The translations under genes and the position numbers were made by a program. Positions 44,159 to 51,458 of a DNA stretch of 64,000 nucleotides are shown piece after piece (position 1 is the first letter of the stretch; each line of letters opens with the position of its first letter). The stretch is taken from the NCBI RefSeq assembly GCF_947387515.1, contig NZ_CANDOB010000002.1, positions 1,178,001 through 1,242,000 on the forward strand, in the 5' to 3' direction. This stretch comes from Alkalihalobacillus sp. CinArs1. Its GTDB lineage: Bacteria > Bacillota > Bacilli > Bacillales > Guptibacillaceae. The notes under the pieces were generated by a model. That model saw nothing but the letters and a program-made list of their open reading frames with translations, did no database searches and was not told the origin of the DNA.

Positions 44159-45418
44159 GTGGATATGAATACTGTGATTTCGATCATTATCATATTCGGA
44201 GCACTGGTCTTTTTCCATGAACTGGGTCACTTGCTCCTTGCAAAACGTGCAGGAATTCTATGCCGTGAATTCGCGATCGGATTTGGGCCGAAGCTTTTCA
44301 CGATAAAAAAAGGTGAAACGGTATATACGATAAGACTATTGCCACTTGGTGGGTTTGTTCGAATGGCCGGAGAAGATCCGGAAATGATCGAATTAAAACC
44401 CGGTCAACGCGTAGGCTTGCTATTCAATAACAAAAACAAGATAGAAAAAATCGTTATTAATCAGAAATCTGCTTACACGAACTTAAAAGAAATCACGGTT
44501 GAAGAAGCCGATTTAGAACACAAACTTTTTATAAAAGGGTACGAAGGTGAAGATGAACCAGCGGTCGTTTATCCGCTTGATGAGCAGTCACACTATGTGA
44601 TGGACGGATCTGAATTTCAGATTGCGCCATATGATCGTCAATTCGGATCTAAGTCTCTCTGGGATCGCTTCCTAGCTATTTTCGCTGGACCAGTCATGAA
44701 CTTTTTACTTGCTATCGTGATTTTCTTCCTACTTGGTTTGCTTCAAGGAACACCTACGAATCAAGTGAATGAAGTTGTTGAAGGAAGCCCCGCTGAGCAA
44801 GCAGGTATGATGAATGGAGATGTGATCACTGAGATCAACGGAACTGAAATAACGAGCTGGGACAAAATGACCTCGATCATTCAAGATAATGCAGAAAACC
44901 AGCTAAGTTTCACCGTGGATCGTGAAGGAGAAGCAGTATCTCTCTCAATAACTCCGGAAAAACAAGAGTTGACTGAGAATCAGTCGGTGGGTCGAATCGG
45001 AGTTGCACCGGCATATCAGGTGAACTTCCTCGATTCAGTTGCTTTTGGTTTTACATCTACGTATGAATTCTCTAAAGCGATCTTTGTAGGTCTAGGTCAG
45101 CTCGTAACAGGTCAGCTTTCGATCGATGCTTTTTCTGGACCAGTAGGGATCTATAGTTATACAGAAGAAGCGGCATCAAAAGGTGTGTACGTATTGATGA
45201 GATGGGCTGCTTTTCTAAGCATCAACCTAGGAATCTTTAATCTCCTGCCATTACCTGCTCTAGATGGAGGAAGATTATTGTTTATTGGGGTAGAAGCATT
45301 AAGAGGCAAGCCGATCGACCCTCAAAAAGAAAGTCTTGTACACTTTATTGGATTCTCTTTCCTCATGTTACTTATGCTCGTTGTAACATGGAATGATATT
45401 CAACGTTTCTTTTTGTAA
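44159..45418 (+). CDS. rseP: Site-2 intramembrane zinc protease RseP/RasP
   Basis: RasP cleaves anti-sigma factors such as RsiW and FtsL within the membrane. The 419-residue protein has HELGH at 20-24 in the first membrane helix, a PDZ domain (about 200-275) with VNEVVEGSPAEQAGMMNGD, and the third zinc ligand in NLLPLPALDGGRL near 362-374; a C-terminal membrane helix follows. GTG 44159 gives an N-terminus that aligns with relatives, but ATG 44165 is better spaced from AAGGTGG and is equally possible. Confidence 0.95.
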   Translation: MDMNTVISIIIIFGALVFFHELGHLLLAKRAGILCREFAIGFGPKLFTIKKGETVYTIRLLPLGGFVRMAGEDPEMIELKPGQRVGLLFNNKNKIEKIVINQKSAYTNLKEITVEEADLEHKLFIKGYEGEDEPAVVYPLDEQSHYVMDGSEFQIAPYDRQFGSKSLWDRFLAIFAGPVMNFLLAIVIFFLLGLLQGTPTNQVNEVVEGSPAEQAGMMNGDVITEINGTEITSWDKMTSIIQDNAENQLSFTVDREGEAVSLSITPEKQELTENQSVGRIGVAPAYQVNFLDSVAFGFTSTYEFSKAIFVGLGQLVTGQLSIDAFSGPVGIYSYTEEAASKGVYVLMRWAAFLSINLGIFNLLPLPALDGGRLLFIGVEALRGKPIDPQKESLVHFIGFSFLMLLMLVVTWNDIQRFFL

Positions 45419-45463: not shown

Positions 45464-47083
45464 ATGAAACAATCGAGTTATTTTAATCCTACCCTCAGAG
45501 ACAACCCAGCTGATGCCGAGATAAAAAGTCATCAGCTGCTTGTCCGAGCGGGTTTTATACGACAGAACGCAGCAGGCATTTATTCTTACCTTCCTTTAGG
45601 TAAGAAAGTATTAATGAAGATTGAAGAAGTCGTTCGAGAAGAATTGAACGAGGCTGGTGCACAGGAGCTTCTTATGCCTGCTATTCAACCAGCTGAACTA
45701 TGGCAAGAAACAGGTCGATGGGATGTTTATGGACCAGAGCTTATGAGGCTTAAAGATCGTCATGACAGACCTTTCGCTCTAGGTGCAACGCATGAAGAAT
45801 TGATTACGAGCCTTGTCAGAGATGAGCTTAGCTCTTATAAGCAAATGCCGGTTATTCTTTATCAAGTTCAGACGAAGTACCGAGATGAGCGTCGTCCTCG
45901 CTTTGGCCTTTTAAGAGGTAGAGAGTTCATCATGAAAGATGCTTATTCTTTCCATTCATCTGAAGAGCAATTAGATGAAGCATATGATCTTATGCACAAA
46001 ACCTATAGCAAAATCTTTACTAGACTCGGACTTAATTTCCGTCCTGTAGTGGCAGATTCAGGCGCCATGGGTGGAAAAGATACAGAGGAATTTATGGCTC
46101 TCTCAAGCGTTGGAGAAGACACGATCGCGTATAGCGATGAATCCGATTATGCAGCGAACATCGAGATGGCAGAAGTGAAAGTCGAATACGTTAAGCCTAG
46201 TGAAGCGGAAGAGGCTTTAGCTAAAGGTGAAAAAGAAACATCTCCTGATCGTGAACTGAAAGCAACACTTCTGAATGTAAACGATGAAGAGCTGCTCGTT
46301 CTTGTAAGAGGCGACCATGACCTCAATGAAATTAAAGTGAAGAACTTATTCGGTACAGACCTTGTAGAAAAAGTAAATAAAGAGATCGATGTAAGAGAAT
46401 TCGAAGGCACGGTCATTGCTGACAATGCGGTCAAATCGATCGTTAACGGAAGCGTTAATGGTAGTAACCCTTATCATAATGTGAACCCTGAACGTGACCT
46501 TAACATCGAACGCTATGAAGATTTAAGATTTATCCAAGAAGGCGACCCTTCTCCAGACGGAAAAGGCAGAGTCGTCTTTGCTGAAGGAATCGAAATTGGA
46601 CAAGTCTTTAAATTAGGTACAAAATATAGCGAAGCGATGGGAGCGAATTATCTTAACGAGGGCGGAAAAGCTGAGCCAATCATCATGGGTTGCTATGGAA
46701 TCGGGATCTCTCGTACGTTAGCAGCGATCGCAGAGCAAAGTGCAGACGAAAACGGACTCAACTGGCCGATGGGTGTCACTCCGTTCCATGTTCATCTTAT
46801 TGCAGTCAATGTAAAAAATGATGATCAAAAGGAATTGTCGGACAGACTTTATGAATCGCTGCGTAATGAGCGCTACGATGTTCTTTACGACGACCGTAAA
46901 GAGCGAGCAGGAGTGAAGTTCAAGGATGCCGATTTAATCGGAGTACCGCTTCGCGTTGTTGTTGGTAAAAAGGCAGCAGACGGCATCGTTGAAGTAAAAC
47001 GCAGAGATACAGGTGAATCATTCGAAGTGGCTGTAGATGAATTGAATTCAGAACTACAAAAGCTCTTTGAACAATTGGGTTAA
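45464..47083 (+). CDS. proS: Prolyl-tRNA synthetase with reduced editing domain
   Basis: ProRS charges tRNA-Pro. The 539-residue class II synthetase has the bacterial architecture: [17 protein letters not shown] near 30, GATHEE near 108, the motif 2 [25 protein letters not shown] near 140, the insertion (INS) domain between about 235 and 360, and the anticodon-binding domain with [22 protein letters not shown] 45464 follows GAGGTG. The INS domain is shorter than usual: the HTP-type helix before the editing Lys and the G-x-x-G-P loop after VRGDH are missing, giving a total about 25 residues short of B. subtilis ProS. Aminoacylation motifs are intact. Confidence 0.95.
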
Positions 47084-47165: not shown

Positions 47166-50100
47166 ATGGATCAGGAGTTAACGGTAAGGAAGGAACGACT
47201 TCAGCTACTCCTTCAGCAAATATCGTTTCCGGATAAGTTTGAAGAATTCTTTAAAGAAGGATATATCTCGAAACTAACAGTATACAAGGAAACGAGGAAG
47301 TGGCATTTCCACTTTCATTTACCTACAATCCTACCATTTCATATATATGAACTATTTCGAAGTCGATTGGTCGATGGGTTAAAGCATATCGCTACAGTTG
47401 ACTTTTCGATTACGACAGATGGTGAAGCAACTGAAGAACTAGCTTCTAGCTACTGGGAAAATGTAGTGGAACTCATGCAGGACCACTCTGCTTCCTTAAC
47501 GGCACTATTGAAGAGTCAAACACCGAGAATCAATGGAAACAAGCTGCTCGTTCACGTTCGAAACGAGACGGAAGCAGCCATCGCAAAGAAGAAGCTAACA
47601 GGCCCATTAGCAGAGTGCTATGAAGCAGCTGGCTTTCCTAAATACATGCTAGAAATCGAAGTAAAAGAATCAAAGCAAGATTACGATAAGTTTATGGAGC
47701 AGAAGCAGCAAGAAGACCACTCCAAGATGATGGAAGCATTGATCGAAAAGCAAAAAGCTGATACAGCTGAAAGCAAAGGTCAGACGCCTGATACGCTCGT
47801 TATCGGCTATAAGATCAAGGAAGATCCTGTGCCGATCGAAACCATTCAAGATGAAGAGCGGAGAATCGCTGTTCAAGGTTATGTGTTCGATGCAGAAACG
47901 AAGGAGCTTCGAAGTGGTCGTACGCTCTTAACATTCAAAATTACAGATTACACGGATTCGATCTTAGTGAAGATGTTCTCTCGCGACAAAGAAGATGTGC
48001 CGATTCTTGAAGCGGTTCGAAAAGGAATTTGGGTAAAAGTTAGAGGCGGTATTCAAAACGATACGTTCGTTCGAGATCTCGTCATGATTGGAAACGACCT
48101 CACTCAAGTGACGCCGGAGCTTCGTAAAGATGAAGCACCTGAAGATGAGAAGCGTGTAGAACTGCATGCACATACACAGATGAGTCAAATGGATGCTGTG
48201 AGTTCTGTTGGTGATCTGATCAGTCAGGCTGCTAACTGGGGTCACCCGGCTATTGCGATTACGGATCATAACAACGTACAGTCGTTTCCTGATGCATACG
48301 CAGCGGGGAAGAAAAATGGCATCAAAATCCTTTACGGATTAGAAGCTGATCTTGTTGATGACGGTGTTCCTATCGCATATAACGAAGCAGATCGAGATCT
48401 TGAGTCAAGTACGTATATCGTATTTGACGTCGAGACGACAGGGTTATCTGCAGTTTATAATAAGATTATCGAGCTTGCAGCCGTTAAAGTGAAGGACGGA
48501 GAGATCGTCGATAAGTTTGAGCGATTCGCAAATCCTCATCATCCGCTATCGTCGACTACGATCGAACTTACTGGCATAACAGATGACATGGTGGAGAATG
48601 CACCTGAAATAGAGGACGTTTTAAAAGATTTTCATGAGTTTATCGGCGACGATATCCTCGTAGCCCATAACGCTAGTTTCGATATGGGATTCCTGAACGT
48701 TGGGTTTCGTAACATCGGATTAGGTGAAGCGAAAAATCCAGTTATCGATACACTAGAGCTTGCGCGATTCCTGTTTCCAGAAATGAGAAACCACCGACTC
48801 AATACGCTTTGTAAGAAGTTTGATATCAACCTTACGCAGCACCATAGGGCGATCTATGACGCGGAAGCGACAGGCTATCTGATGTGGAAACTTTTAAAAG
48901 ATGCGCTGGAAAGAGAAATTACAAACCATAATCAGCTTAATGAGAATATGGGACAGACAGGATTCCAGCGAACAAGACCATCTCACACGATCATTCTAGC
49001 TAAAAACGATGTAGGACTAAAAAATCTTTTCAAACTTGTATCGCTTTCCCATCTCGACTACTTTTATCGGACAGCACGTATTCCAAGGTCAAAGCTTGAG
49101 AAGTATCGAGAAGGTCTATTGATCGGATCAGGGTGCGATAAAGGTGAAGTATTTGAAGGCATGATGCAAAAATCTCCTGAAGAGGTTGAGGAGATTGCAA
49201 AATTTTACGACTATCTAGAAGTTCAGCCGCCTCAGAACTACATGCATCTTATTGAAAAAGAGCTTGTACAGGATGAAATGGCACTAAGAGACATTATCGG
49301 AAATATCGTAAAGCTAGGAGAGAAATTAGATAAGCCTGTCGTTGCGACAGGGAATGTGCATTATCTAGACCCTCAAGATCACATCTATCGTAAAGTTCTG
49401 ATCAAAGCACAAGCTGGTAATCCATTGAACAGACAGACGTTGCCTCAAGTTCATTTTAGAACGACGAACGAAATGCTCGACTGCTTCCATTTCCTTGGTT
49501 CAGAGAAAGCAAAAGAAATCGTGGTTGAAAAACCGCAGCATGTCGCGAGTCTTATCGATGACATCAAGCCGATCAAGGATGATCTTTTCACGCCTAAGAT
49601 CGAAGGTGCCGATGAAGAGATGAGAAAGATGAGCTATGATCGGGCTAGGAGTATTTATGGTGATGAACTACCGACGATCGTTGAGGAAAGACTAGAAAAA
49701 GAGCTGAAAAGTATTATAGGTCACGGATTTGCGGTAATCTATTTGATCTCTCAAAAGCTAGTTAAAAAATCATTGGATGACGGATATCTCGTAGGCTCAC
49801 GTGGGTCAGTCGGGTCATCATTCGTAGCAACGATGACGGAAATTACAGAAGTTAACCCATTGCCGCCTCATTACGTATGTCCGACGTGTAAAGAGTCCAA
49901 ATTCTTCGATGACGGTTCCGTAGGCTCAGGGTTTGACCTTCCTGATAAAGAGTGTGATACGTGCGGCGTTCCGCTCATTAAGGATGGTCATGATATTCCG
50001 TTTGAAACGTTCCTAGGATTTAAAGGGGATAAAGTACCCGATATCGATTTGAACTTCTCAGGTGAATATCAGCCGAGAGCACACAATTATACGAAAGAAC

Positions 50101-51458
50101 TCTTCGGGGAAGACAACGTCTATCGTGCGGGAACCATCGGCACTGTCGCAGAAAAAACGGCATATGGATATGTGAAAGGGTACATGGGTGATAACGACCT
50201 CCATTTCAGAGGTGCTGAAATCGACCGACTCGTAGCAGGCTGTACAGGCGTCAAACGTACATCAGGTCAGCACCCTGGAGGAATCATCGTAGTACCAGAT
50301 TACATGGACATCTACGACTTTTCACCGATACAATTTCCAGCTGACGATAAAACTTCCGCTTGGAAAACAACTCATTTTGACTTCCACTCGATCCACGACA
50401 ATCTCTTGAAGCTCGATATTCTAGGACATGATGATCCTACCGTGATCAGAATGCTTCAAGATTTAAGTGGAATCGACCCGAAGACGATTCCGACCGATGA
50501 CGCTGAAGTGATGAAGCTATTCAGTGGCACAGAATCGCTCGGTGTTACGCAAGATCAAATCATGTGTAAAACTGGAACGTACGGCATTCCTGAATTCGGT
50601 ACGCGCTTCGTTCGACAGATGCTTGAAGACACGAAACCTAGTACGTTCTCAGAACTCGTACAGATCTCTGGTCTATCACACGGCACGGATGTATGGCTTG
50701 GGAATGCACAGGAGCTCATTCAGGCCGGTACATGTTCACTTAGTGAAGTGATCGGGTGTCGTGACGATATCATGGTGTACTTGATCTATAAAGGGCTCGA
50801 ACCATCCCTTGCATTTAAGATCATGGAGTTCGTTCGTAAAGGGAAAGGTCTTCAAGAGGAATGGGTCAACGAAATGAAGAAGCACGATGTGCCTGATTGG
50901 TATATTGATTCTTGCTTGAAGATCAAATACATGTTCCCAAAAGCCCATGCGGCAGCATATGTCCTTATGGCGGTGAGGATCGCTTACTTCAAAGTGCATC
51001 ATCCTATTCTTTTCTATGCTGCTTACTTCACAGTAAGAGCAGATGACTTTGATATCGATACGATGGTAAAAGGATCGAACGCAATCCGAGCGAGAATTGA
51101 AGAGATCAACGAAAAGGGTCTCGATGCTTCTCCGAAAGAGAAGAACCTACTCACTGTCCTTGAGATCGCGCTTGAAATGTCAGAGAGAGGTCTTCGTATG
51201 CAGAAAGTTGATCTCTACAGATCGAAGGCAACAGAGTTTATCGTAGATGGCGATTCTCTTATTCCTCCGTTCAACTCACTACCTGGAGTGGGAACAAACG
51301 CTGCATTGAATATCGAAGCTTCAAAAGAGGATGGAGAATTCCTCTCGAAAGAAGATCTTCAACAGCGAAGTAAGATTTCAAAAACGGTCCTTGAGTATCT
51401 AGATGACCATGGCTGTCTAGAAGGGCTGCCAGATGCTAATCAGCTCAGTCTTTTCTAA
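47166..51458 (+). CDS. polC: DNA polymerase III alpha subunit, PolC-type
   Basis: PolC is the replicative polymerase of low-GC Gram-positives. The 1430-residue protein has an N-terminal domain (1-200), an OB fold (about 215-320), a PHP domain starting [14 protein letters not shown] near 331, a DnaQ-type 3'-5' exonuclease inserted in it (FDVETTGLS near 418, HNASFDMGF near 500, [10 protein letters not shown] near 560), a zinc module with CPTC and CDTCG near 905-940, and the palm with [16 protein letters not shown] near 955. AAGGGGG precedes the ATG. Length and motifs match the B. subtilis enzyme. Confidence 0.98.

Follow-up and report, generated by a model that had tools for sequence, protein, structure and literature searches.

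The window analyzed here is a stretch of 64,000 nucleotides from Alkalihalobacillus sp. CinArs1. It carries the gene proS (45464..47080, stop codon at 47081-47083), which encodes a prolyl-tRNA synthetase (ProRS) of the bacterial type with 539 amino acids. This and all features of the window described below lie on the forward strand. The protein, called window ProS in the following, matched the NCBIfam models NF006625 with 728 bits (cut-off 558) and TIGR00409 with 690.8 bits (cut-off 306.7). The catalytic core (PF00587) and the anticodon-binding domain (PF03129) were both recognized above their cut-offs, which confirms the statement of an earlier note on this DNA that the aminoacylation motifs are intact. 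T109, E111, R140 and E218 belong to the columns that were invariant in 77 aligned ProS sequences. Judged by its sequence, window ProS is a normal bacterial-type ProRS with an intact class II core and an intact anticodon-binding domain. Among the 80 loci kept for comparison, its nearest named relative is the ProS of Pseudalkalibacillus hwajinpoensis (L002) with 81% identity.

The editing domain of this enzyme, the INS domain, comprises residues 223-366 (46130..46561) and appears vestigial in alignments and in a structure model. It consists of about 145 amino acids, compared with 173-178 in aligned intact ProRS. ProS sequences are termed intact when they hold K at the column of E. coli K279 and H at the column of E. 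coli H369, which applies to 93 of the 129 compared sequences. Relative to the intact L015, L003 and E. coli sequences, 13 residues are missing after window residue 257 (e.g., PSVKTIEELAAFL), corresponding to the TPxxKTIEEL stretch. A further 12-14 residues are missing after residue 313 (e.g., GTEPGFVGPVGLNT). With them the final part of a helix is lost together with the GXXXP loop, which is the G-x-x-G-P loop of the earlier note. That note had described the domain as short and two conserved segments as gone, and the alignments to L015, L003 and E. coli bear this out. Three more residues are missing after residue 333, within the GAN..GxH segment and before the pocket His. The editing family model PF04073 matched window ProS with 15.9 bits, which is under the cut-off of 25.5, and covered 50 of its 123 positions.

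The alignments allowed us to locate the individual parts of the stub. A short linker (46178..46261) stands in the place of the TPxxKTIEEL strand-helix. Its last residue, K266, aligns with E. coli K279, which was located by residue counting in the K-12 protein. The linker is followed by a retained core (46304..46369), invariant in the sequences of all 14 genomes of the genus, and by the site of the second deletion (46370..46426), where the second helix and the GXXXP loop are replaced. Finally, the remains of GAN..GxH are found at 46448..46498. There the column of E. coli H369 holds P in the window and A in the other 13 genomes of the genus, a loss of the pocket His that the earlier note had missed.

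An AlphaFold2 (AF2) model of window ProS was calculated with 77 aligned sequences. It reached a mean predicted local distance difference test score (pLDDT) of 93.1 and a predicted template modeling score (pTM) of 0.89, and the ten-residue means of the pLDDT across the stub were between 87 and 96. The model places strands of the stub at residues 264-272, 275-282, 316-320, 329-331 and 337-340 and helices at 289-296 and 321-325. An AF2 model of the intact ProS L010 (50 sequences, pLDDT 90.4) served as control, the comparison being made at the level of secondary structure strings. The L010 model contains, beyond the elements of the window model, a helix at 263-269, a short strand at 314-316, a helix at 319-326 and the GXXXP loop before strand 342-346. 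Strand 253-256 is reduced to two residues in the window model. Apparently, the stub keeps the INS core in a folded form after losing two helices and the GXXXP loop. The complete INS fold with a usable pocket for which the earlier note had proposed to look by modeling is thus not predicted. In a comparison with solved structures, full-length bacterial ProRS ranked best (Z 53-54, root mean square deviation 2.1-2.7, 537-538 residues aligned).

Conservation of the stub within the genus

The INS region had an identical length of 159 amino acids (window residues 215-373) in the ProS of all 14 genomes of the genus, compared with 186-192 in the intact sequences of the same alignment. The total length of these proteins is 539 amino acids, except for 538 in three of them. 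Because the INS length is the same in all 14 genomes, the stub is not a sequencing error. A sequencing or assembly artefact, in favor of which nothing was found, is refuted by the shared architecture in the 14 genomes and in L002, with open frames free of stops, and can be regarded as practically impossible. The ProS of L002 shows 0 differences to that of L087, which is among the 14, and is therefore no 15th independent case.

The residues of the editing pocket are either lost or free to vary in the genus. The Lys column (E. coli K279) holds H in 11 genomes, N in one and R in one, and K is found in the window only. T257 and G362 (E. coli numbering), invariant in all 93 intact sequences, are kept in none of the 14 genomes. 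The GXXXP columns are deleted in every one of them, and none reaches the PF04073 cut-off. VRGDH is invariant in all 14 sequences, and so is the longer stretch LVRGDH.LN.IKVK. Thus, the claim of the earlier note that Lys and VRGDH remain holds for VRGDH throughout the genus, and for the Lys it holds in the window itself but not in the other genomes. The INS-superfamily members characterized so far are described as having the Lys and the GXXXP loop in common (PMC11286415), and K279A is in use as an editing-defective variant of E. coli ProRS (PMC3973320). The 36 sequences outside the intact group are the 14 of the genus, L002, L096 from the sister genus, 16 of the family f15 (including L021), and L113, L115, L117 and L118.

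The synthetic and anticodon-binding parts were compared at positions conserved in at least 90% of intact ProS. At these positions only I56V and M61L are changed in all 14 genomes; both replacements are conservative and also occur in L096. R187, which is strongly conserved elsewhere, is changed in most of the genus and is still R in the window.

Free-standing editing proteins and related lineages

In order to find proteins that could take over editing, the genomes were searched with PF04073. At E ≤ 0.001 the genome of the window gave no match. The 14 genomes of the genus together gave one (7.9e-4), which lies inside ProS, so that none is free-standing. When the threshold was raised to E ≤ 10, the best match was the ProS stub in all 14 genomes. 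In each of three genomes there was one additional match of 10.5 bits (E about 1.6), which spans 25 positions of a frame of 653-668 amino acids and is at chance level. Consequently, PF04073 revealed no convincing YbaK, ProXp-ala or ProXp-x in the 14 genomes even at E ≤ 10. The search of the genome for ProXp-ala or YbaK that the earlier note had suggested therefore brought up no free-standing INS-family protein. As a control, the same model found matches in 12 of 14 well-known genomes. In the sister genus genome G014 a single match was obtained at E ≤ 0.001, again inside ProS (27.7 bits).

A general decay of proofreading was considered and rejected on the basis of the one further editing family searched, PF07973, whose domains are kept in the genome of the window. 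Three matches were above cut-off, in frames of 892, 678 and 405 amino acids, of which the first two fit AlaRS and ThrRS. The third (L185, match at G000:C2:720181-720306) lies apart from these two frames and may be a long AlaX-type protein. The search for a second ProRS yielded one full-length match only; the other three matches were partial and lay in frames (678 and 432 amino acids) that fit ThrRS-like and HisRS-like synthetases. An odd tRNA-Pro as explanation was likewise dismissed. The one tRNA-Pro(UGG) looked at (G000:C1:92-168) is ordinary, with two mismatches to a B. subtilis-type pattern, and it carries C1:G72, A73, G35 and G36 as expected of a cognate tRNA-Pro.

Within the order, 376 of 397 genomes contained a PF04073 match. 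The 21 genomes without one are 13 of the genus and eight others. Two of these eight, G072 and G181 of family f15, have ProS stubs. The other six (G063, G180, G245, G286, G338 and G363, the last being counted here because its handle is absent from the PF04073 match rows) gave TIGR00409 matches under the cut-off only, in frames of 479-526 amino acids, and probably have an archaeal-type ProRS. In the class, counted regardless of ProRS type, 21 of 249 genomes were without a match, the genome of the window included. The 20 others are nine of f53, three of f54, two each of f49 (g131), f73 (g206) and f79, one of f58 and one more. Eight further genomes of the order and 20 of the class are thus without PF04073 as well, and the genus is not alone in having no INS-family protein.

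Stubs were also present in the ProS of all 15 sampled genomes of f15 and in Sporolactobacillus L021, which nests within this family in the tree. They are similar to the stub of the genus, as the same two segments are gone and the Lys and His columns are variable (K in 5 and H in 1 of 16 sequences, L021 included). VRGDH is lost in the f15 stubs. Unlike the genus, f15 possesses free-standing PF04073 proteins in 13 of 15 genomes, G072 and G181 being those without. For 7 of the 13 genomes these proteins, 14 in number, were compared, and each of the seven genomes has one L171-like (63-72% identity) and one L172-like protein (42-49%). L172 is a YbaK according to NCBIfam (179 bits, cut-off 153.25). 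The ProXp-x-like L171 reached none of the NCBIfam cut-offs; among solved structures, the putative trans-editing protein 2cx5 from Thermus is closest to it. A review shows 2cx5 as ProXp-x, which acts on Abu-tRNAs (Abu, α-aminobutyrate) and less on Ala-tRNA-Pro (PMC11295145).

A milder alteration was observed in three genomes of family f35 (G048/L118, G231/L117 and G332/L115). Their INS domain is nearly full length (163-168 residues versus 170 in most intact sequences), the Lys column holds H or R, and the His column holds F or Y. PF04073 gave no second match in these genomes. The 13 other f35 ProS keep both K and H. The ProS L113 of genome G029 also looks partly eroded: its INS domain is about nine residues shorter than intact ones, Lys and His columns hold Q and Y, and the genome has no other PF04073 match. 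In trees calculated without the INS columns the altered f35 sequences fall among intact f35 sequences and apart from the genus. A single origin of all stubs and erosions was rejected on this ground, and at least two erosions have probably taken place. The stubs of the genus and of f15 may share one of them. The intact Exiguobacterium L016 stands in an unresolved fork with both, where the state count gives three changes that do not separate gain from loss. Two labels did not fit the tree. The ProS of L010, titled Pseudomonas sp. ISL-84, falls among Bacillaceae, so the entry is probably mislabelled or contaminated, and that of L051, titled Lutibacter sp. B2 (Bacteroidota), forms a long branch loosely with Bacillota sequences.

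In the window, proS is flanked by two genes. The upstream one (44159..45418) probably codes for an RseP-type site-2 protease. The product of the downstream one (47166..51458) is presumably DNA polymerase III PolC.

Explanations for the shortened domain

The following explanation is considered very likely. The enzyme would be an ordinary bacterial ProRS whose INS domain had decayed, no later than in the ancestor shared by the genus, to a reduced yet folded stub unable to hydrolyze Ala-tRNA-Pro. Post-transfer editing of Ala-tRNA-Pro would thereby be lost, and the stub would be retained for folding and catalysis of the synthetic site, which seems to need a domain at this place. In that case the cell would have to depend on how selective its synthetic site is and/or put up with a certain amount of Ala at Pro codons. 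When INS was removed completely from the E. coli enzyme, amino acid activation fell 1200-fold (PMC12547528), which may be the reason to keep a core stub without editing. A high Ala:Pro ratio in the cell is said to bring the factor by which ProRS effectively discriminates down to 1200, which makes a need for editing likely (PMC10164551). The expectation of the earlier note that the enzyme charges tRNA-Pro and may not clear Ala-tRNA-Pro gains support from the intact core, the deleted GXXXP loop, the variable Lys column and the lack of a detectable free-standing INS protein. One mark of a naturally editing-deficient synthetase is a degenerate editing domain in a working enzyme. Window ProS has such a domain, and the conservation of its synthetic part suggests that it works. 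We found no assay of any ProRS carrying this stub in the literature.

The mode of selection on the stub was analyzed by the rates of nonsynonymous (dN) and synonymous (dS) substitution. In the genus the median dN/dS was 0.135 for the stub and 0.036 for the rest of ProS, values that are rough because dS is near saturation. The dN ratio of stub to rest was 3.24 in the genus; it reached 4.08 when the window was paired with its nearest congener, and 4.90 in one sub-group of three. For the f15 stubs the corresponding ratio was 3.08-3.29, and for nine groups with intact INS it was 1.64-2.74. Purifying selection still acts on the stub, which is less constrained only when set against the remainder of the same protein.

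Several points weigh against a loss of editing. The dN/dS of the stub lies within the range of intact INS domains (0.025-0.205), a comparison of regions that do not hold the same columns, so relaxed selection finds support only in part, as the stub-to-rest ratio is raised and the value itself is not. Window ProS and L096 of the sister genus both still have Lys at the key column, and L096 passes the PF04073 cut-off with 27.7 versus 25.5 bits. Moreover, the genomes of the genus are listed as 99-100% complete and most are not closed, and PF04073 would miss any deacylase outside the INS superfamily.

A shortened INS domain that still edits, via a rebuilt pocket or on another substrate, would agree with the folded AF2 model, the purifying selection, the invariant VRGDH core and the Lys of the window. 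It is nevertheless very unlikely, because the GXXXP loop and two helices are missing, the Lys column is variable and the His column replaced in the genus, and the invariant stretch is the INS core and not the pocket. A backup by an Ala-tRNA-Pro deacylase from outside the INS superfamily is somewhat less improbable, though still unlikely. The 405-amino-acid PF07973 frame, present besides those that fit AlaRS and ThrRS, speaks for it, and a paper on trypanosomes (PMC12021450) reportedly assigns a surprising enzymatic activity to a nucleic acid-binding fold and also refers to Ala-tRNA-Pro. On the other side, no bacterial example of such a deacylase is known to us. The activity of AlaX is described as exclusive to Ser-tRNA-Ala (PMC7373986). 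A further possibility concerns the consequence of the loss and not the loss itself. If the synthetic site now distinguishes Pro from Ala more strictly, the loss would be harmless instead of leading to mistranslation. The stub is common to all 14 genomes searched, and the loss has therefore been lived with for long. Little compensation is visible at the strongly conserved core positions, where I56V and M61L as the only general changes neither prove nor exclude a re-tuning. We consider a harmless loss about as credible as its opposite, with a slight lean against it.

If INS decay with loss of editing is true, the bacteria of this genus seem to manage without the normal safeguard against inserting alanine instead of proline. 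The genome size of the genus, together with a paper that is said to deal with sediment isolates (PMC12272613), suggests that the genus is free-living. It is rather probable that this whole, apparently free-living genus has given up all known INS-family proofreading of tRNA-Pro (cis INS, ProXp-ala, ProXp-x and YbaK) and kept INS as a structural prop. Either the synthetic site of ProRS would then be re-tuned, or a measurable fraction of proline codons would be read as Ala or Cys. Among bacteria whose ProRS is of the bacterial type, the genus and two of the 15 f15 genomes seem exceptional. Loss of synthetase editing has otherwise been described mainly in host-restricted organisms (PMC11415595). 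Neighbors with intact, half-eroded and stub INS domains, with or without free-standing INS-family proteins, form a natural series. This series could show whether bacteria that lose editing cope through a more selective active site, through trans factors or by tolerating mistranslation. It also bears on the question which part of INS the synthetic site needs.

Comparison with known editing systems

Full-length ProRS with an INS domain, such as those of E. coli, Enterococcus faecalis (2j3l) and 5znj, presumably the enzyme of Staphylococcus aureus, share gene, domain order and fold with window ProS. Compared with these enzymes, the INS domain of window ProS is about 28-30 residues shorter and has neither the GXXXP loop nor two of the helices nor the pocket His, and its PF04073 match is under the cut-off.

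Caulobacter crescentus has a ProRS with a truncated mini-INS and a free-standing ProXp-ala. This enzyme and 2i4n, presumably the mini-INS ProRS of Rhodopseudomonas palustris, are devoid of a working cis editing domain, as window ProS probably is. The stub of the window is longer than a mini-INS (2i4n_B has 442 residues in all, of which 410 were aligned). Unlike in Caulobacter crescentus, neither ProXp-ala nor another INS-family protein was found in the 14 genomes of the genus. In about 34% of bacteria the editing domain of ProRS is absent or not functional, and many of these bacteria depend on ProXp-ala (PMC3973320).

In Mycoplasma and Microsporidia, which are restricted to hosts, synthetases other than ProRS have lost their editing function (PMC7373986, PMC11415595). 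These enzymes resemble window ProS in combining a degenerate editing domain with an otherwise working enzyme; the difference is that the present case concerns ProRS and a genus with genomes of 3.9-4.7 Mb. Among titles and beginnings of abstracts, which cover part of the field of ProRS editing, none describes an intermediate ProRS stub in a genus of this genome size without an INS-family protein. Archaeal-type ProRS without INS also have no cis editing domain, and the six genomes of the order that probably contain this type are without PF04073 as well. In contrast, the enzyme of the window is of the bacterial type, which normally bears INS. Loss of cis editing as such is already known; what is unusual here is its apparent loss in a bacterial-type ProRS without any backup from the INS family.
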